From contig NZ_CP090347.1 of assembly GCF_021398715.1 (NCBI RefSeq), positions 1,798,001-1,862,000 of the forward strand: a stretch of 64,000 nt of DNA, read 5' to 3'. The first letter of the stretch is position 1. Each line of letters begins with the position of its first letter. The notes beneath the pieces are model-generated. The model was not told where the DNA came from. It saw nothing but the letters and a program-made list of their open reading frames with translations, and did no database searches. The translations under genes and the position numbers were made by a program. This DNA comes from Microbacterium binotii (GTDB lineage Bacteria > Actinomycetota > Actinomycetes > Actinomycetales > Microbacteriaceae). Shown here one piece after another: positions 2,993 to 55,247 of this stretch.

Positions 2993-5071
2993 TCAGGCGT
3001 CGATGGACTCGCGCGAGAGCCGGTCGCTCGAGGTCACGATGAAGTCGCGGCGCGGGGCCACTTCGTTACCCATGAGGAGCTCGAAGGACTCGTTCGCCCG
3101 GGTGGCCGCATTCGCGTCCTCCACGGTCACGCGTCGGAGCATGCGACCGGCGCGGTCCATCGTCGTGGTGGCGAGCTGATCGGCGTCCATCTCGCCCAGA
3201 CCCTTGTAACGCTGCACGGGCTCCTGCCAGCGCTTACCGGCCTTCTGCAGCTTCGCCAGCAGGGCGTGCAGCTCCTTCTCGCTGTACGTGTAGATCGTCT
3301 CGTTCGGCTTCGTGCCCGGGTTCATCACGACCACGCGGTGCAGGGGCGGCACGGCAGCGTAGACGCGTCCGGCCTCGACCAGCGGACGCATGTAACGGAA
3401 GAAGAGCGTGAGCAGAAGGGTGCGGATGTGGGCTCCGTCGACATCGGCGTCGCTCATCAGGATGACCTTGCCGTAGCGTGCGGCGTCGATGTCGAAGGAG
3501 CGGCCGGAGCCGGCGCCGATCACCTGGATGATCGCCGCGCATTCGGCGTTGGACAGCATGTCGCTGATCGATGCCTTCTGCACGTTGAGGATCTTGCCTC
3601 GGATCGGCAGCAGAGCCTGGTACTCGCTGTTGCGGGCCAACTTCGCGGTACCGAGGGCGGAGTCGCCCTCGACGATGAACAGCTCGGAGTCGGCGACCTC
3701 GTTCGTCCGGCAGTCCGCCAGCTTCGCGGGCAGGGACGAGGACTCGAGCGCGGACTTCCGGCGCTGCGTCTCCTTGTGGGTGCGCGCGGAGATACGCGCC
3801 TTCATCTCCGAGACGACCTTCTCCAGTAGCTGCGCGGTCTGATTCTTGTCGTCGCGCTTCGTGGAGGTGAACTTCGCCGTCAGCTCGCGCGAGACCACGT
3901 TGGCGACGATCTGGCGCACCGCCGGCGTACCGAGGATCTCCTTCGTCTGGCCCTCGAACTGCGGCTCCGGCAGGCGCACCGTGAGAACGACCGTGAGCCC
4001 CGCGAGGATGTCGTCCTTCTCGAGCTTGTCGTTGCCGACCTTGAGCCGACGGGCGTTCTGCTCCACCTGGCTCCGGACGACTTTCATCAGCCCGGCTTCG
4101 AAGCCTGCCTGGTGCGTTCCACCCTTCGGGGTGGCGATGATGTTCACGAACGAGCGCATGGTCGTGTCGTAACCGGTTCCCCAGCGCAGCGCGACATCGA
4201 CCTCGCAGGAGCGCTCGAGCTCGGTCGGCACCATCGCGCCCGACGGCTGCAGCACGGGAACCGTCTCGGTGAACGTGCCCTCACCGGTCAGCCGCCAGGT
4301 GTCGGTGATCGGCGCATCGGGCGCCAGGAAGTCGGCGAATTCGGAGATGCCGCCGTCGAAGCGGTAGCTCGTCTCCACCCGCTCCTCGCCGCGCTGGTCG
4401 TCGACCACGATCTCCAGCCCGGGCACGAGGAACGCCGTCTGGCGTACGCGCTGCACGAGCTCGTCGAGTCCGAACGTCGCGTCTTTCGTGAAGATCTGCC
4501 GGTCCGCCCAGTAGCGGATGCGGGTTCCCGTCACGCCGCGCGGCGCCTTGCCCACGACGCGCAGCTCGGATGAGCGCCGGTAGGGCGTGAACGGCGCGTC
4601 GGGCGAATCGCCGGCGAACGTGCCGGGCTCCCCGCGGTGGAACGACATGGCGTAGGTCTTGCCGCCGCGGTCGACCTCGACGTCCAGACGCTCCGAAAGC
4701 GCGTTCACGACCGAGGCGCCGACACCGTGCAGACCACCGGATGCGGCATAGGAGCCGCCGCCGAACTTACCGCCGGCGTGGAGCTTCGTGAAGACGACCT
4801 CGACGCCGGTGAGTCCGGTGCGCGGCTCGACGTCGACGGGGATGCCGCGCGCGCGGTCCCGCACCTCGACGCTGCCGTCGGCGTGGAGCAGGATGTCGAT
4901 GCGCGAACCGTGCCCGGCGAGGGCCTCGTCGACGGAGTTGTCGATGATCTCCCACAGACAGTGCATGAGTCCGCGGGAGTCGGTGGAGCCGATGTACATG
5001 CCCGGGCGCTTGCGGACGGCCTCGAGTCCTTCGAGGACCTGCAGGTGGTGGGCGGAGTACTCGGCGGTCAC
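2993..5071 (-). CDS. parE: DNA topoisomerase IV subunit B (ParE)
   Basis: The ATPase subunit of topoisomerase IV, about 692 residues. The N-terminal GHKL ATPase domain is clear: EGLEAVRKRPGMYIGS, then IIDNSVDEALAG with the Mg-binding Asn, and GLHGVGASVVNALS. The transducer domain follows. The C-terminal Toprim domain has FIVEGDSALGTAKLAR and SDADVDGAHIRTLL. The frame is open to 5185, but the extra N-terminus is arginine-rich and unlike the family. The GTG at 5071, which gives the usual TAEYSAHHLQVLEGLEAV beginning, is preferred. Its ribosome-binding sequence TTGAGG is only 3 nt away, so the exact start is less certain than the identity. Confidence 0.93.
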   Translation of the reverse strand: MTAEYSAHHLQVLEGLEAVRKRPGMYIGSTDSRGLMHCLWEIIDNSVDEALAGHGSRIDILLHADGSVEVRDRARGIPVDVEPRTGLTGVEVVFTKLHAGGKFGGGSYAASGGLHGVGASVVNALSERLDVEVDRGGKTYAMSFHRGEPGTFAGDSPDAPFTPYRRSSELRVVGKAPRGVTGTRIRYWADRQIFTKDATFGLDELVQRVRQTAFLVPGLEIVVDDQRGEERVETSYRFDGGISEFADFLAPDAPITDTWRLTGEGTFTETVPVLQPSGAMVPTELERSCEVDVALRWGTGYDTTMRSFVNIIATPKGGTHQAGFEAGLMKVVRSQVEQNARRLKVGNDKLEKDDILAGLTVVLTVRLPEPQFEGQTKEILGTPAVRQIVANVVSRELTAKFTSTKRDDKNQTAQLLEKVVSEMKARISARTHKETQRRKSALESSSLPAKLADCRTNEVADSELFIVEGDSALGTAKLARNSEYQALLPIRGKILNVQKASISDMLSNAECAAIIQVIGAGSGRSFDIDAARYGKVILMSDADVDGAHIRTLLLTLFFRYMRPLVEAGRVYAAVPPLHRVVVMNPGTKPNETIYTYSEKELHALLAKLQKAGKRWQEPVQRYKGLGEMDADQLATTTMDRAGRMLRRVTVEDANAATRANESFELLMGNEVAPRRDFIVTSSDRLSRESIDA

Positions 5072-5237
5072 AATCCTCAAGGGTATCCGGGGCCACCCCC
5101 GCGGCTCTGCACAGACACGACGGCACGGGGGCCGCCGTACGCGGTCAGCGAAACGCGCGCCCGAGCGGGCATGAGTCACGGGCACGCATGGTTACATGTC
5201 ATATCCGTACCCGCCCGACGCACCGAGGAGGTCTCCG

Positions 5238-5462
5238 ATGAGCACGACGTCGACACCCACCGAGCAGTCCGCCGTTCTGGAACACCGGTTGACTGCCGCC
5301 GACCGCTGCGACTCGTGCGGAGCGCAGGCCTACATCGCCGCCGAGGTGAACGGCAGCGAGCTGCTGTTCTGCGCACACCACGGCCGCAAGTACGAAGAGA
5401 AGCTCCGCGCCGTGGCCACCAGCTGGCACGACGAGACCGCTCGCCTGGTCGACGCGGTCTGA
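5238..5462 (+). CDS. small CxxC protein, DUF7455-like
   Basis: A 74-residue protein starting at the ATG 5238, with GAGGAG 7-8 nt upstream. The core reads TAADRCDSCGAQAYIAA, then LLFCAHHGRKYEEKL, giving a CxxC and a CxHH pair that could bind one zinc. Actinobacterial proteins of this pattern are usually annotated as DUF7455 and often lie beside parE and the principal sigma factor, as here. No function is established as far as I know. It diverges from parE and converges on the racemase-like gene ending at 5469. Confidence 0.85.
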   Translation: MSTTSTPTEQSAVLEHRLTAADRCDSCGAQAYIAAEVNGSELLFCAHHGRKYEEKLRAVATSWHDETARLVDAV

Positions 5463-5468
5463 TCCGTC

Positions 5469-6503
5469 TCAGCGGTATCGCCGCTCCACCAGCGGCGATA
5501 CCCGCAGCGCGATCTCCTCGCCGATCGTGCCGATCGTCTCGGCCAGATCGGTGGGGCTCGCCGCATCCGTGCCATAGATGCGAACCCTGTCGCCCGCTCG
5601 CGCGCCGTCCCATCCGCTGACCGTCGCGCTGACCTCATCCACCGCCACCAGGCGCCGGGGGCCCGCCGGCGTCATGACGTCAACACGTCCCGCCAGCGCC
5701 GAGACCAGCCCGTCGAGCGCTCCCACATCGATGCGCACCCGGTCGCCGTCGACGGAGAGCACCTCGGCGTCCCATGAGCCGATGGGCGCGATTCCCAGCT
5801 CGGCGTCGGCCGGACCGCCCGCGGGGCGGATTCCGTAGCAGAACGCCCCCACCCGGACGAGGTCGTACCGGAACTCCGCGCGGGCCGACGACGCCGCGCT
5901 CGCGGCGAGATGACGGAGCGGGCGCTCGAGTCCCGCAGCCGTCGCAGCAGCGACCGCCTGTTCGAAAGCCGCCCGCGAGAGATCGTCCTCGTCGTCGGAC
6001 GCCTCGGCGATGTGGCTCCATATTCCGGAGAGTTCCACGACGCCTTCCCCCGCCAGAGCGACGACGCGGTTCACCGCATCCGTCCACTCCTCCGGCCGGA
6101 TGCCGTTGCGGTGCAGACCCGTGTCGACCTTCAGGTGGATGCGGGCGCGAACACCGCGCGCTCGGGCCGCATCCGCAACGTCCTCGAGGAGATCCGCGTC
6201 GCCGACACCGAGGTCGAGATCCGCATCGAGCGCCGAGAGGATCGCACTCTCGCCCGCGATCATCCAGACGAAGATGCGCGGCTCCCGTCCGACAGCGCCT
6301 CGTACCTCGAGCGCGGTCGCGACATCGAACGCGCCGATCCAGCCGACGCCCTCGGCCACGGCGCGGCGCACCACCTGCGACACCCCGTGCCCGTACGCGT
6401 CGTCCTTGACCACGAGCATGAGTGCGGCGGGTGCCACGCGATCGCGCACGACGGCGATGTTGCGAGCAAGCCGGTCGAGGTCAACGTGCAGCACGGAACT
6501 CAC
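5469..6503 (-). CDS. alanine racemase-like PLP barrel protein lacking the catalytic tyrosine segment
   Basis: A 344-residue fold-type III PLP protein. The TIM-barrel half looks complete: VVKDDAYGHG with the PLP Lys33, HLKVDTGLHRNG (residues 123-134, with the Arg that contacts PLP), SHIA around His164, HLAASAAS, and VRVGAFCYGIRP. The C-terminal beta domain is shortened: the VGYG segment that holds the second catalytic base (Tyr265 in Bacillus Alr) and the GYxDG stretch are missing. The last part, AETIGTIGEEIALRVSPL, is again typical. The GTG start at 6503 overlaps the TGA of the preceding racemase-like gene by 4 nt. The frame is open to 6563, but the extension is not Alr-like. I infer that it pairs with its neighbour to form one active site; the substrate is unknown, perhaps ornithine or lysine. 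Confidence 0.85.
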   Translation of the reverse strand: MSSVLHVDLDRLARNIAVVRDRVAPAALMLVVKDDAYGHGVSQVVRRAVAEGVGWIGAFDVATALEVRGAVGREPRIFVWMIAGESAILSALDADLDLGVGDADLLEDVADAARARGVRARIHLKVDTGLHRNGIRPEEWTDAVNRVVALAGEGVVELSGIWSHIAEASDDEDDLSRAAFEQAVAAATAAGLERPLRHLAASAASSARAEFRYDLVRVGAFCYGIRPAGGPADAELGIAPIGSWDAEVLSVDGDRVRIDVGALDGLVSALAGRVDVMTPAGPRRLVAVDEVSATVSGWDGARAGDRVRIYGTDAASPTDLAETIGTIGEEIALRVSPLVERRYR

Positions 6504-7153
6504 GCCGTCTCCTCCCGCCGGGCCCGCAGTCCCACCGCGGTCGCGATCTCGTCCGCGCGCCATCCCGTCGCGCGCGCCCAGTCGGCGACACGCGGTGCGT
6601 CGTCGCCGAAGAACACCGCCCGATCCCCGCGTGCGACCGGTGCGTCACCGATGTCGACGACGCACACATCCATTGCGACGCGGCCCACGATCGGATGCGA
6701 GGCGCCGCCGATCACGACGTGCGCTCGATTGCCGAGCTCACGAACCACGCCCTGCGCGTAGCCACCCGTGACGAGCGCCACGCGTGTATCCACGGGCGCG
6801 CGGTGGCTGTAGCCGTAGGAGACACCCTCGCCGGCGCGCAGCGCCTTGGTGGAGAGCACGGTGCCGATCAGTGTCATCGCGGGAAGCGTCCGATCCCACC
6901 CGAAGACGACGTCCGGAGCGAGGGTCGCAGATCCCACCGTCACCGTGCGATCGCGCTCCGCGAGTCCTGCGACGTCGTCGATGAGCAGCACCGCGTCCGT
7001 CTGGGCGCGCAGAGCGGCGGCGGTCGCCAGCAGACCGTGGCCGTAGGCGTCGCGGCGAAGATCGACGACCGGCGCGACGACGCCGGCCGATCGCACGTTG
7101 ACCACGATGGCCGACGTGCGGATGCGCGCTACGGGTGCGCCGTCGTCGCTCAT
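6500..7153 (-). CDS. truncated alanine racemase-like protein with C-terminal catalytic domain but no PLP lysine
   Basis: A 217-residue protein. Residues 10-70 resemble only the first strands and helices of the Alr barrel, and the usual VVKADAYGHG motif reads LRRDAYGHG, so the PLP lysine is Arg33. About 150 residues of barrel are missing. The C-terminal domain is complete: GEGVSYGYS with the catalytic-base Tyr113, GGYAQGVVREL for the usual GYxDGxxR, and IVGRVAMDVCVVDIG with Met161-Asp162. It therefore keeps what the next gene lacks. In homodimeric Alr the Lys of one subunit faces the Tyr of the other, so a heterodimer could hold one complete site. The C-terminal-domain gene comes first in transcription order, which argues against a simple frameshift of one alr. 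Confidence 0.85.
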   Translation of the reverse strand: MSDDGAPVARIRTSAIVVNVRSAGVVAPVVDLRRDAYGHGLLATAAALRAQTDAVLLIDDVAGLAERDRTVTVGSATLAPDVVFGWDRTLPAMTLIGTVLSTKALRAGEGVSYGYSHRAPVDTRVALVTGGYAQGVVRELGNRAHVVIGGASHPIVGRVAMDVCVVDIGDAPVARGDRAVFFGDDAPRVADWARATGWRADEIATAVGLRARREETA

Positions 7154-7158
7154 GCGTC

Positions 7159-7905
7159 TCAGAGCTGGATCGCGGTGAAGCGCTTGTCGACAGCCAGGCG
7201 CTCGATCTCCGCACGTGCCGCGCGCGCGTGCGCATCGATCTCGGCGTGCGCGGGACCGGGCGAGTACTGCGCGTCGCGACGGGAGAACGCCTGCGTGAGC
7301 AGCGCATCGGCCAGGTCGGGGTTGAGTGGCAGCACCGGGCCCTGCACGTTCGTCGCGTAGACCGAGCCCATGCGCACGGTTTCGAACCCGCCCTCGATCC
7401 CGCCGTTGCCGGCGGTCACGGTGCCGTAGGCGATGGCGGGGTCACCCAAGCGCCACAGCGACGCGTGGTCTTCGAATCCGATGAGCTTTCCGTCGCTGGT
7501 GTCCGCGACGACATAACCCACCCGGCGCTGCTTCGTACGTCCCACGCGGGCCGGGATGAGTCCGAGGCCGTCGAGGTGCGTGCCGTCGACGAGGTCGATG
7601 CCCTCGGAGAGCAGCTCTGACCCTCCGCCCACGGCCAGCACGACCGCACCCGCTCCGATGAGCGCCGTGAGCCACTCTCGACGGCTCGCGAGGTCGTCGC
7701 GCACCACACGCAGCGCCGAGAGCGGACCGTTGCCGATCACGATGATGTCGGCGTCCGCCGGTGCGTCCTCGCCGGGGTCGACGAGAGTCACCTCCGACCC
7801 ATGGCCGGCCAACGACGCACGTGCGGCGAGGACCTCCACGTTCCCGCGATCGCCCGTCACGCCGAGCAGATCAGGGTAGAGCTGAACGATTCGCAGCGTC
7901 GTCAT
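7159..7905 (-). CDS. GatD-like class I glutamine amidotransferase homologue without catalytic residues
   Basis: A 248-residue CobB/CobQ-type GATase domain protein, the partner of the MurT-like ligase upstream (4-nt ATGA overlap). The fold is recognisable: the LRIVQLYPDLLGVTGDRGN start, the GNGPLS loop, IGFEDHASLWRLG, and the C-terminal GPVLPLNPDLADALL. In GatD the nucleophile lies in a CGGxQLLG motif. Here the segment is AVGGGSELL (residues 91-99), with glycine for cysteine, and the protein contains no cysteine. The catalytic His of the usual LHGPLLPKNP motif is Gln188 (NVQGPVLP). Glutamine hydrolysis through a thiol therefore looks impossible. I infer a structural or substrate-binding role in a MurT complex that uses another amine donor. 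Confidence 0.88.
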   Translation of the reverse strand: MTTLRIVQLYPDLLGVTGDRGNVEVLAARASLAGHGSEVTLVDPGEDAPADADIIVIGNGPLSALRVVRDDLASRREWLTALIGAGAVVLAVGGGSELLSEGIDLVDGTHLDGLGLIPARVGRTKQRRVGYVVADTSDGKLIGFEDHASLWRLGDPAIAYGTVTAGNGGIEGGFETVRMGSVYATNVQGPVLPLNPDLADALLTQAFSRRDAQYSPGPAHAEIDAHARAARAEIERLAVDKRFTAIQL

Positions 7906-9197
7906 CGTCGCGCCACCTCCTGGTCGCCGTAGCCGAGGATGCGGCGACCGATCATCATGAGCTCGTAGTTCACGAACCAGATCTGCCGGCCGGCCGCGGT
8001 GGGAGCGAAGGCTCGCATGAGCTCGACGGCCTTCTCCATATCGGGTTCGACGACCCCGATCGGGATGCCCGCGTAGGCGAGTCGCGTCGCGATCTGGTGT
8101 GCCTTCTCCCCCGTGACGACATCCACGTGGTCGAACGCACTGAGATCGACGTCGTAGAGCCAGGACACGTCCGGGGTGCCTTCGTCGATGGCCATGAGGA
8201 CGCGCTCGGGAGCACCGTCGAGCGCGTCGACGTTGAGCTGGAGACTCGGGCCGTTCTTGAACATCACGAACTCGACCTGCTCACCCGAACGGTCGCGGCG
8301 CAGCGGCACGAGCTCACCTCGGCCGTAGGCCGGCGTCATCTGGGAGAAGCCCGCTGCAGCAGCGTCTGCCCGAAAGGCCTCACCAAGGACGTGACGAGCA
8401 GTGCTGATCGCGGCCGCCGCATCCACCGCATAGTGGAGCCCGCGAGCCGGCAGCGTCACGGCGATCGGCCGGCCGTCGAGCGTGATCTCGACATTGCGAC
8501 CGGTCACCGCGGTGACCTCGCTCTCGGCCGGATGGTCGAGAGCGCCGACCGTACCGCTGCGCGTGTCGGCGGCGTTGTTCAGTCCGTGTGCCGACGCGGC
8601 GACGACCTCGCGGGAAGCGCCGAAGAACGAGACCGGAGACCGCAGCGCGGCGGCGTCGATCTTGCTGAGGTACGGGTCGTCGCGGTTGACCACCACGCGC
8701 ACGGATGCACGGGTCGCTGCGTCGAGCATCATGTCGGCGACCCGCTCGGTCTCGTAGAAGCGATAGAGCTGGTCGACCTGCACGTTGAGCGCGACGATGA
8801 CGCGGGGTGACAGGATGTCGGCGAGATCCGCCGCGTACCCTTCGTCCACCTCGAGCACGGCCACGTCGGCCCGGACCTTGCCGGTGGGGGTCGCTTCGGC
8901 CAGGAGCGCGCTGGTGACTCCCTGGGGCAGATTCGCGCCGGTCGGGTTGGTGAACACGCGAAGTCCGTGGGCGCGCAGCACCTCGCTGACCATGTGCGTG
9001 GTCGTCGTCTTCCCGTTGGAGCCGAGGACGAAGACCACGCCGTACGGGAACTGCGCCGCGAGGCTGCTCAGCAGGGTCGGCGCAAGACGGTTGGCGAGGT
9101 AGCCCGGGAAGGCCGACCCGCCACCACGCAGACGCGTGGCGAAGCGGGCGGCCTTGCCTGCGAGCACCGCGGGGACATAACGGATGCTGCCGCTCAC
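7902..9197 (-). CDS. MurT-like Mur ligase (lipid II D-Glu alpha-carboxyl activating enzyme), zinc ribbon lost
   Basis: A 431-residue Mur-ligase-family protein with a DUF1727 C-terminal domain. It shows the P-loop GSNGKTTTT (residues 59-67), TNPTGANLPQG, EVDEG, the NRDDP loop, YGRGELV, a KNGPS segment in place of the usual KNPAG, and DVSWLYDVD. The canonical enzyme activates the D-Glu alpha-carboxyl of lipid II with ATP, and GatD supplies ammonia. Here the central region, about residues 192-250, which normally carries a four-cysteine zinc ribbon, has no cysteine, and none occurs anywhere in the protein. GTG start at 9197, only 7 nt after the sigA stop. The ATPase part looks functional, so I infer a ligase with a changed acceptor or amine donor. 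Confidence 0.88.
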   Translation of the reverse strand: MSGSIRYVPAVLAGKAARFATRLRGGGSAFPGYLANRLAPTLLSSLAAQFPYGVVFVLGSNGKTTTTHMVSEVLRAHGLRVFTNPTGANLPQGVTSALLAEATPTGKVRADVAVLEVDEGYAADLADILSPRVIVALNVQVDQLYRFYETERVADMMLDAATRASVRVVVNRDDPYLSKIDAAALRSPVSFFGASREVVAASAHGLNNAADTRSGTVGALDHPAESEVTAVTGRNVEITLDGRPIAVTLPARGLHYAVDAAAAISTARHVLGEAFRADAAAAGFSQMTPAYGRGELVPLRRDRSGEQVEFVMFKNGPSLQLNVDALDGAPERVLMAIDEGTPDVSWLYDVDLSAFDHVDVVTGEKAHQIATRLAYAGIPIGVVEPDMEKAVELMRAFAPTAAGRQIWFVNYELMMIGRRILGYGDQEVARR

Positions 9198-53124: not shown

Positions 53125-54084
53125 TCACCGTGCGACGGCTGCGTTGAGCAGCTGGTCGATCAAGGTCACGTAGCCGAGCCCGACGGCGGCGTACATGCGG
53201 GGCACCTGCGAGTGCTCGGTCATCCCGGGCGTGGTGTTCACCTCGTTGAGCACGACGCCGCGACCGGTGACGAAGAAGTCGAAGCGTGCGACACCCGCGC
53301 ATCCGAGTGCATCGTAGAGACGCACCGCATCCCGCTCCAAGATCTCCAACTCGTCCGACGTCACGCGCGCGGGGATGATGAACGGCGCGCTGCCGTCGTA
53401 TTTCGCGGCGTGGTCGAACAGAGCCCGGTCGGCGACGGCGATCTCCAGCGGCTCGCCGACCCGCAGTGCGCCCGAGGTGCCACGGAACACGGCGATGTCC
53501 ACCTCTCGCCCGGTGATGAAGGGCTCCACCAGCACGCTGCTCCCCGCGCGGCGCGCCCGTTCGATCGCAACCGCCAGATCAGCCGCGTCCGAGACCAGCG
53601 ACACACCGTTGCTCGAGCCTCCCGACGTCGGCTTCACCACGAACGGCGTAGCGAGGGGAACGCTCGGGACCGCGTCACCCGCCTCGATCAGGATGCCCGG
53701 CGCCGTCGCCACTCCGAGGGCACCCGCGACGAGCTTCATCGCCCACTTGTCCATCGCCAAGGCACCGGCCCGCACCGGAGAACCCACGAAGGGGACACCC
53801 AGCATCGTGAGAAGGCCCGCGATCGCACCATCCTCGCCGTTCACCCCGTGCAGCACCGGGAAGACCACGTCGCAGCCGTCCAGCAGGCGGACGGCGTCGG
53901 CGGGCGTGAGCGACCCGTCGACCGAGCGCCACTGCCCACCGCGCTCGATGGTCAGCTCGCAGACATCGTCACCGAGCTCACGCGCCGCTCGCGCCACCGA
54001 GGCCGCCGACGCGAGCGAGACATCGTGCTCGTCGTTCGCTCCGCCGCCGATGACCACGATCCTTCGCTGCCGGAGTGTCGTCAT
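53125..54084 (-). CDS. ddl: D-alanine-D-alanine ligase
   Basis: A 319-residue ATP-grasp ligase that joins two D-alanines for peptidoglycan. It has the N-terminal Glu/His region (GGGANDEHDVSLASA), FPVLHGVNGEDGAIAGLL, VGSPVRAGALAMDKWAMK, the grasp segment FVVKPTSGGSSNGV, the omega-loop Tyr in FDHAAKYDGS, which favours D-Ala over D-lactate ligases, and VLNEVNTTPGMTEHS with Mg ligands. The ATG overlaps the alr stop by 4 nt, so the two enzymes that make and use D-alanine are translated together. Confidence 0.92.
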   Translation of the reverse strand: MTTLRQRRIVVIGGGANDEHDVSLASAASVARAARELGDDVCELTIERGGQWRSVDGSLTPADAVRLLDGCDVVFPVLHGVNGEDGAIAGLLTMLGVPFVGSPVRAGALAMDKWAMKLVAGALGVATAPGILIEAGDAVPSVPLATPFVVKPTSGGSSNGVSLVSDAADLAVAIERARRAGSSVLVEPFITGREVDIAVFRGTSGALRVGEPLEIAVADRALFDHAAKYDGSAPFIIPARVTSDELEILERDAVRLYDALGCAGVARFDFFVTGRGVVLNEVNTTPGMTEHSQVPRMYAAVGLGYVTLIDQLLNAAVAR

Positions 54085-55247
54085 TCAGGTTCCTTCCGTT
54101 GTGTTCTGCGCTGCACACGCGAAACGCGGGCACCGATCCGGGTGACGATCTCGTGCTCGATGGTCTCCGACCATCTCGCCCAGTCGGCGACGGTGGGCTC
54201 TCCCTGGTCGCCGGGTCCGAAGACCGTCACGGTCTCCCCCGGGGTCAGAAAGTCGTCGCCGGTGTCGATGACCGCCATGTCCATGGAGATCAGGCCGACG
54301 ATCGGCCGACGGCGACCCCGCACGAGGACCTCGGCGCGGTGGGAGGCCGCTCGCGGCAACCCGTCCGCGTAACCCAGCGGAAGCAGGGCGAGGTGGGTGG
54401 GACGGTCAGTGATGAAGCGGGCGCCGTAGCCGACGCTCACATGTGCACCTACCCGACGCGCGCTGATGACCGGTGCGCGCAGGGAGAGGGCGAAGCGCAG
54501 CTCGCTCGAGGTCCGCGAGGGGTCGATCCCGTACAGGCCCGCTCCGACGCGATGAAGGTCGTGGTCGCCGCCGATCCCGGTGATCGTCGCCGCCGTCGCC
54601 GCCAGATGCGTGACGGCGGGCGCAAGCCCTCGGCGGCGAGCGCTTCGAACGGCCGCATCGAAGCGCAGCCGTTCGCGGAGGTTCTGCGGGTCGTTCGGGC
54701 GGTCCGCGCACGACATGTGCCCCATGATCCCGACGACCTGCGCATACCCCTGCCGCTCCGCCATCCGGGCGAGTTCGCACAGGCTCCGCCACTCGGATGC
54801 GGGCGCGCCGTCACGGCTCATGCCCAGATCGGCATGGAGGTGCAGACGTGCCCGGTGACCGAGGCGGTGCGCGACGCGCACGACGGCCTGCAGCGCGTCT
54901 GCACTCGACACGCCGAGGTCTATGCGCTGCGACACGGCCGACGCGAAGTCAGCACCGACCGGATTCAGCCAGCTGAGGATCGGGACATCGAGACCGCAGC
55001 GTCGAAGGGTGAGTGCCTCGTCGAGCGACGCGACCCCGAGCGCGGTGGCACCTTCCTCGATCGCTGCTGACGCCACGGGACCGTGACCGAATGCGTCCGC
55101 CTTCATCACCGCCATCAGGCGGCCCCGCGTGAGACGGGAGAAGTACCGCACGTTGGCTCGGATCGCTTCCTCGTCCACGCGCAGCTCCGGAGCCGACAGG
55201 ACCGCATCAGCGCGGGGTTGTGAGGCGTTCGGCACGATCAGAGTCAA
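54081..55247 (-). CDS. alr: alanine racemase, complete
   Basis: A 388-residue PLP enzyme that interconverts L- and D-alanine. All key parts are present in one chain: Lys49 in VMKADAFGHG, HLHADLGMSRDG (the usual KIDTGMxRxG, altered to HAD-L-GM but with the Arg), GHMSCAD, the catalytic Tyr274 in SVGYGARF, PLGYADGLPRA and SMDMAVID. The start is a TTG at 55247; a GTG at 55235 is the alternative. It is directly followed by ddl. Because this enzyme is complete, the split racemase-like pair at 5.5-7.2 kb is probably for something else. Confidence 0.92.
   Translation of the reverse strand: MTLIVPNASQPRADAVLSAPELRVDEEAIRANVRYFSRLTRGRLMAVMKADAFGHGPVASAAIEEGATALGVASLDEALTLRRCGLDVPILSWLNPVGADFASAVSQRIDLGVSSADALQAVVRVAHRLGHRARLHLHADLGMSRDGAPASEWRSLCELARMAERQGYAQVVGIMGHMSCADRPNDPQNLRERLRFDAAVRSARRRGLAPAVTHLAATAATITGIGGDHDLHRVGAGLYGIDPSRTSSELRFALSLRAPVISARRVGAHVSVGYGARFITDRPTHLALLPLGYADGLPRAASHRAEVLVRGRRRPIVGLISMDMAVIDTGDDFLTPGETVTVFGPGDQGEPTVADWARWSETIEHEIVTRIGARVSRVQRRTQRKEPE

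Follow-up and report, generated by a model that had tools for sequence, protein, structure and literature searches.

A MurT/GatD pair lacking the glutaminase cysteine and a racemase in two halves: a proposed cassette for the group-B peptidoglycan bridge in Microbacteriaceae

The window analysed here is a stretch of 64,000 nucleotides from Microbacterium binotii (assembly GCF_021398715.1, contig NZ_CP090347.1, positions 1,798,001 to 1,862,000 of the forward strand), whose genome consists of one contig of 3,290,652 bases. A previous reading made from the sequence alone had proposed that four genes on its minus strand, encoding a MurT-like ligase, a GatD-like partner and two racemase-family proteins (here AlrC and AlrN), form a unit that makes and attaches the bridge residue of group-B peptidoglycan. 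The presence of these genes at this place was confirmed (Table 1). Among Pfam domains, the ligase matched Mur_ligase_M (E = 3.8e-13; 50.3 bits, cut-off 24) and MurT_C (3.6e-7; 30.6 bits, cut-off 25), while GatD matched GATase_3 (5.6e-12), AlrC matched Ala_racemase_C (4.9e-31) and AlrN matched Ala_racemase_N (4.1e-51). The tight junctions reported previously were also confirmed on the minus strand: MurT and GatD overlap by 4 nt, GatD and AlrC are separated by 5 nt, and AlrC and AlrN again overlap by 4 nt. The mechanically called open reading frame of AlrN (6563-5469) is over-long and was shortened as listed. Upstream, murT begins 7 nt downstream of the end of sigA. The order sigA, ligase, racemase pair (where present) and parE recurs across the family, with the DUF7455 gene mostly preceding parE, and this recurrence indicates that the cassette is more than a chance arrangement.

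Table 1. Features at the cassette locus and elsewhere in the window
Feature	Position	Strand	Remarks
MurT-like ligase	9197-7902	-	GTG start, 431 aa; Mur-ligase central and MurT C-terminal domains
GatD-like partner	7905-7159	-	248 aa; GATase_3
AlrC racemase half	7153-6500	-	Ala_racemase_C; catalytic Tyr (YGYSHRAP), MD motif
AlrN racemase half	6503-5469	-	GTG start, 344 aa; Ala_racemase_N; barrel binding pyridoxal 5'-phosphate (PLP), catalytic Lys
sigA-type primary sigma factor	10548-9205	-	immediate upstream neighbour of murT; locus landmark
DUF7455 protein	5196-5462	+	opposite strand; downstream landmark
parE/gyrB-type topoisomerase subunit	2993-5185	-	downstream landmark; listed GTG start probably too early
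Full-length alanine racemase	54081-55247	-	third racemase; both Pfam domains strong

Comparisons were made in a family sample of 120 Microbacteriaceae genomes (MurT called at E<1e-10, strong CofE at E<1e-80), a genus sample of 149 Microbacterium genomes including that of M. binotii (MurT at E<1e-100, CofE-like proteins at E<1e-60, split AlrC at E<1e-34), an order sample of 198 genomes (14 of the same family and 184 others; CofE-like homologues at E<1e-30), and a set of named loci comprising the best 80 of at least 291 relatives. The genomes with G and L labels are draws from larger groups, and their genus labels rest on MurT identity to named loci; the G and named sets overlap, and some rows are duplicates. 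Pfam MurT_C proved too weak for the survey within the family, as it missed MurT in G318, G412 and G451, where the gene was found otherwise.

In the window GatD, the position of the catalytic cysteine is occupied by Gly93 (motif LAVGGGSELL), and the His-motif position is retained (GFEDH). Among the 94 aligned GatDs of the family sample, window included, the cysteine was absent from all 76 encoded at sigA-linked loci and present in 14 of the 18 others; it was also absent from all 77 GatDs of the named loci. These counts omit six G loci and three named loci at which MurT was present and GatD was not found by BLAST. The catalytic histidine was kept in 52 of the 76 linked copies, the window among them. 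Outside the family, GatDs belonging to 30 of the 71 MurT matches in the order sample all had the cysteine, as detected by pattern in 27 cases and by eye in three (CGSYQ). The contrast between none of 76 and all of 30 favours the previous prediction that this MurT no longer works on glutamine-derived ammonia. In Staphylococcus aureus, the GatD C94G mutation abolished the glutamine-dependent activity of MurT, while NH3-dependent activity was kept at pH 8.5 (PMC3266927). By analogy with this mutant, the window-type MurT/GatD should not use glutamine, and the natural glycine form would be expected to leave a working MurT that takes another amine. Conceivably, that amine could be free ammonia, in which case MurT with a dead GatD would still amidate D-Glu, as the activity of the mutant with NH3 allows, and the racemase would belong to an unrelated metabolism. 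We consider this very unlikely, since the cysteine loss is lineage-wide rather than sporadic, and since a group-B bridge is impossible on an amidated alpha-carboxyl.

Several variants of this pair were observed. Unlinked MurT/GatD pairs with an intact cysteine occur in some Microbacteriaceae (L100, L103, L104, L106-L111, L113, L115 and L129). A separate class of sigA-linked MurT is found at L118-L123 and L125, with a zinc-ribbon pattern in L120-L123 and L125 and none in L118 and L119; the GatDs of L118-L123 are devoid of the cysteine (motifs like LFTHNALEVLG), and no GatD was found at L125. Lastly, the very reduced genome represented by L105 (G015; contig of 927,303 bases) has kept MurT, a GatD without the cysteine and split racemase halves that are divergent.

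The two remaining genes had been described as a racemase pair. Both indeed belong to the racemase family, but they are really one racemase split into complementary halves. Alignment to the canonical Alr encoded in the same genome shows that AlrN comprises the barrel with the PLP lysine (VVKDDAYGHG) and two arginines (HRNG, LVRVG), followed by a C-terminal domain from which the tyrosine segment is missing. AlrC contains the tyrosine segment and the later methionine, preceded by a barrel stub of ~80 aa with arginine at the lysine position. We compared 55 such pairs, 24 from the G loci and the window and 31 from named loci; one more named locus had AlrN only. In AlrN, the lysine was present in all 55, Arg136 and Arg219 each in 54, Met312 in two and the tyrosine in none. 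In AlrC, Met312 was present in all 55, the tyrosine in 49, Arg219 in two, and neither Arg136 nor the lysine in any, the latter being replaced by arginine in 47 (the numbering of Arg136, Arg219 and Met312 is taken to follow the Geobacillus enzyme). In no pair did either half carry both the lysine and the tyrosine. In homodimeric Alr, the catalytic tyrosine of each site is contributed by the partner chain, and AlrN and AlrC together should therefore form exactly one complete site. The residue pattern thus suggests that the two proteins are an obligate heterodimer with one composite site. Apart from the split pair, the source genome has two full-length Alr copies, one within the window (Table 1) and the canonical Alr outside it.

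Split AlrC was detected in 123 of the 149 Microbacterium genomes, plus G208 on inspection. The latter genome had been considered a case of MurT without racemase, an idea that was dropped because a divergent pair is present at its locus. In the order sample, split AlrC was found in 7 of the 14 genomes of the same family, and the matches listed for the other 184 genomes included none. Two matches outside the family reach the N-terminal stub of AlrC, both in long frames. The expected association of the cassette with wall group is supported to this extent, with the proviso that group A was assigned to the other genomes from their family. Fourteen genomes were selected because two full-length Alr genes lie side by side in them, and G087 turned out to share this arrangement.

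The cassette is not the fixed four-gene unit that had been assumed, since most Microbacterium pair the racemase halves with another ligase. In relatives without MurT, a CofE-like protein of ~231 aa (PF01996) stands after sigA; four of these proteins were scanned and scored 28.1-43.9 bits (cut-off 25), and a search with a single CofE-like sequence gave no significant PDB sequence match. Within Microbacterium, MurT was found in 29 genomes (copies 73-98% identical to that of the window in the 28 others) and CofE in 119, with no genome having both and only G250, which is 72% complete, having neither. The family sample contained MurT in 97 genomes and strong CofE in 16, again without overlap, and neither ligase in seven (G019, G022, G049, G051, G062, G099 and G119). 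A third ligase was considered for G049 and G119 and rejected, the extra gene encoding a solute-binding protein. Shared ancestry ignored, the naive chance of zero overlap is 8e-15 for the family and 5e-30 for the genus. SigA adjoins CofE in 37 of 38 fetched CofE loci, while L323 has sigA on another contig. A ParE tree was built for 129 loci, of which 36 have CofE at the site, 79 MurT and 14 neither ligase; it requires 17 changes of the CofE label, and well-supported branches force 12 of these. Both ligases are found within Microbacterium and within genera g7, g9 and g13. We read this exchange as the apparent displacement of one enzyme by another with the same job. CofE enzymes form their amide bonds with amino acids and lack a glutaminase, which provides an independent pointer to amino-acid ligation. 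Weak partial matches were also seen in other frames of some CofE-bearing genomes, and these perhaps represent the true F420 enzyme.

A ligase pair of this kind could instead act outside the wall, on a gamma-glutamyl tail of folate or F420, with the sigA linkage being historical. FPGS and CofE are indeed described as non-homologous enzymes that share one gamma-glutamylation chemistry (PMC10861534). However, the window ligase has a GatD partner and is nearest to MurT among NCBIfam models (6.4e-33, far better than FolC at 4.3e-4), and the ligase and racemase trees described below track wall chemistry, which makes this the most improbable of the alternatives that we weighed.

In the order sample, CofE-like homologues were detected in 15 of the 184 genomes outside the family, always in frames of 809-1016 aa. 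In L239-L241 the N-terminal part reads as asparagine-synthetase type; L239, the only fusion scanned with Pfam, matched Asn_synthase at 1.8e-68, and its CofE part reached 17.3 bits, under the 25-bit cut-off. None of the 65 MurT_C matches outside the family coincided with a CofE-like fusion (naive chance 0.001). Both ligase systems thus have relatives elsewhere with a glutamine-using part, whereas the Microbacteriaceae versions appear without one. The displacing CofE likewise has no glutaminase part, in contrast to the Asn_synthase-type fusions in which its relatives outside the family occur, and this also speaks against amidation with free ammonia. The AsnB-CofE fusion itself, seen in three other families (L239-L243), is possibly another route to the amidation of wall precursors.

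If the cassette supplies the bridge residue, its genes may be expected to sort with the residues found in walls. The residues that we assign to Curtobacterium, Leifsonia, Pseudoclavibacter and Rathayibacter are presumed from general knowledge. A tree of 58 racemase barrels, including 23 of the 55 AlrN, fell into three parts: canonical Alr, an ornithine/lysine (Orn/Lys) clade (support 99/99) and a diaminobutyrate (DAB) clade (96/68). The Orn/Lys clade unites the second tandem copies of Curtobacterium, Frondihabitans and Frigoribacterium with the split AlrN of Microbacterium, Agreia, Salinibacterium and Microcella, while the DAB clade unites the second copies of Clavibacter, Herbiconiux and Subtercola with the split AlrN of Leifsonia, Pseudoclavibacter, Pontimonas and others. 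Because split and full-length forms occur in both clades, the splitting probably happened at least twice. Among the rows listed, the MurT tree has a second racemase in all 13 labelled rows of the D-Orn/D-Lys clade and in 22 of 24 of the D-DAB clade, and in none of the 31 rows of the clade of Agromyces (with Rathayibacter, Plantibacter, Cryobacterium and Rhodoluna), of which 22 were labelled single, 3 'unknown' and 6 not at all; 'unknown' denotes extra Alr copies of unassigned type, and there were 9 such rows in the tree. An Agromyces-like genus, g80, had one Alr match in all five genomes. These patterns agree with published bridges: D-Orn in Frondihabitans (PMC5945732), D-Lys in Frigoribacterium (PMC7033078), D-Orn, L-Lys or DAB, by species, in Microbacterium (PMC10757982), D-DAB in Clavibacter (PMC9603630), D- and L-DAB in Herbiconiux (PMC10011130) and D-Glu-L-Dab in Agromyces aureus (PMC5217419). 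The sharpest contrast is that of Agreia and Subtercola, which are neighbours on the ParE tree and yet stand apart on both the MurT and the racemase trees, Agreia in the Orn/Lys clade and Subtercola in the DAB clade; the two genera are close by 16S as well, and the residues reported are L-DAB connected to D-Orn in Agreia and DAB in Subtercola (PMC5945732). The previous suggestion of a racemase for a D-diamino acid beside MurT is therefore upheld in that both trees sort with published residues. It does not hold that the racemase always lies there, given that in several genera a second, full-length racemase is encoded at another place and that the Agromyces type (L-Dab) has no second one.

Ten Microbacterium genomes were picked for having no split AlrC, and at their CofE locus we found the ligase and neither racemase half. 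We predict that, within Microbacterium, the absence of the split racemase corresponds to an L-Lys wall; species with L-Lys are the M. imperiale clade, M. enclense and M. gubbeenense (PMC10757982). In the second tandem Alr of L295-L298, L300 and L312, all of the Orn/Lys clade, HRDG or HREG replaces the canonical GRNG or SRNG, and the acidic residue that this places beside the substrate arginine might help to select a basic side chain.

An ATP-grasp gene lies next to CofE in 35 of the 38 loci, for instance at L226:6299-7378 on the minus strand; PF14397 was matched in the two that were scanned. Such a gene also occurs at L102, and with sigA-linked MurT at L118, L120, L123 and L125. A sense frame beside CofE in L222 and L218 was considered and rejected, as it has no domain and the conserved gene is the antisense ATP-grasp. 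The ATP-grasp protein may be a candidate for a further ligation step. This leads to another order of events, in which the ligase attaches glycine, or another residue that is not a diamino acid, to the D-Glu alpha-carboxyl and a second enzyme such as the ATP-grasp protein adds the D-diamino acid. In some Microbacterium walls, glycine does precede the diamino acid. The frequency of the ATP-grasp gene at CofE loci, its presence at L118, L120, L123 and L125, where MurT has a dead or missing GatD, and the ten genomes with a ligase and neither racemase half would all fit such an order. However, the MurT clades track the kind and chirality of the diamino acid, and in Clavibacter, where the bridge is D-DAB alone, the MurT stretches L047, L050 and L164 gave no ATP-grasp match. 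We therefore regard glycine as an unlikely first residue and favour direct attachment of the diamino acid.

Various observations weigh against our interpretation. With regard to the racemase, the catalytic tyrosine is replaced in six of the 55 AlrC (by His in three and by other residues in three), the DAB clade is weakly supported, and a single Alr match was obtained in each of the Rhodoluna-like genomes G010 and G092, although Rhodoluna lacicola is reported with D-Ala-D-Dab (PMC4156110). The MurT tree is mixed in its Okibacterium/Mycetocola part. With regard to the ligases, MurT is present solely in unlinked form, paired with a Cys-intact GatD, in 12 of the 97 genomes that have it, which together with the seven genomes without either ligase means that the ligase rule is not family-wide; in a basal group, sigA adjoins parE with neither ligase nor racemase between them, and the ligase is an unlinked MurT with intact GatD or none was found. 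Both G054 and G066 hold a linked dead GatD and an unlinked intact one. In G053, a weak CofE homologue (37%, 1.3e-33) adjoins a zinc-ribbon MurT; a fusion of the two was considered and rejected in favour of adjacent genes, given that the CofE match is in a different frame from the long one, in which the Pfam domains begin late. Finally, the window MurT has no cysteine at all and hence no zinc ribbon, but 28 of 30 MurTs outside the family are without it as well. Zinc-ribbon loss was consequently rejected as a signature of group B, on which it is uninformative.

Taking these points into account, we consider it likely that the cassette both produces the bridge amino acid of group-B walls and carries out its attachment. 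MurT, to judge from its family, would activate the alpha-carboxyl of D-Glu on the lipid-linked precursor with ATP, and GatD would stay on as a structural subunit unable to split glutamine. The attacking amine would be that of an amino acid and not of ammonia, in the window Microbacterium most likely D-ornithine. AlrN and AlrC, which would supply the lysine and the tyrosine of their composite site, are predicted to racemise the L-diamino acid to its D-form. In other lineages, the non-homologous CofE-family amide ligase would perform the same ligation at the same site, and the ATP-grasp protein often encoded beside it may add a further residue. With somewhat less assurance, yet still as the reading that we favour, we propose that one exchangeable module underlies the group-B cross-link: MurT/GatD or CofE, unrelated systems that would each have lost a glutaminase, turned into amino-acid ligases for the D-Glu alpha-carboxyl and been swapped at one locus more than 10 times, combined with a dedicated racemase lineage that was split at least twice into a one-site heterodimer. 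The ligase and racemase clades would then predict the bridge residue and its handedness.

The division into group A and group B peptidoglycan is said to have been basic to chemotaxonomy since Schleifer and Kandler (1972); beyond this family, Erysipelothrix and Eubacterium have group-B walls. Our searches of open-access papers turned up none that we could recognise as assigning a gene to the group-B bridge step or as describing the present proposal. If our proposal is true, the genes for this step are named and a sequence predictor of wall type becomes available for Microbacteriaceae. It would moreover present a neofunctionalised MurT, place the CofE family in cell-wall synthesis, and supply an example of a PLP racemase split in nature, with a single composite site. 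The bridge step would then be directly testable with purified proteins and lipid II. As a side result, the six named loci that match the window best are all from Microbacterium species apart from one, L134. This record, labelled Planococcus sp. APC 4015, has a Microbacterium-type locus and falls inside Microbacterium on the ParE tree; it is probably mislabelled.

Compared with known systems, the window pair resembles the lipid II isoglutaminyl synthase MurT/GatD of S. aureus and Streptococcus pneumoniae in being a two-gene ligase and partner with Mur-ligase and MurT_C domains, and by analogy ATP-dependent chemistry at the D-Glu alpha-carboxyl is expected of it. It differs in the glycine that replaces the GatD cysteine, in the missing zinc-ribbon cysteines of MurT and in its place with a racemase, and it lies far under the NCBIfam equivalog cut-offs for MurT (114 against 800 bits) and GatD (72 against 400). 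The racemase shares with Alr/DadX and their broad-specificity relatives the barrel lysine, the C-terminal tyrosine, the arginine positions and the Ala_racemase_N and Ala_racemase_C domains, all of these contributed jointly by both halves. In contrast to Alr/DadX, its essential lysine and tyrosine reside on separate proteins, and its AlrN barrel falls outside the clade of canonical Alr from the same genomes. The displacing ligase has the domain family of the F420 gamma-glutamyl ligase CofE/FbiB (PF01996) and, presumably, its joining of a carboxylate to an amino acid by an amide bond; unlike CofE/FbiB, its gene lies between sigA and the racemase genes. The AsnB-type/CofE-like fusions of other families in the order are 43-51% identical to the Microbacteriaceae form in their CofE-like part, whereas the Microbacteriaceae form is without the Asn_synthase part.

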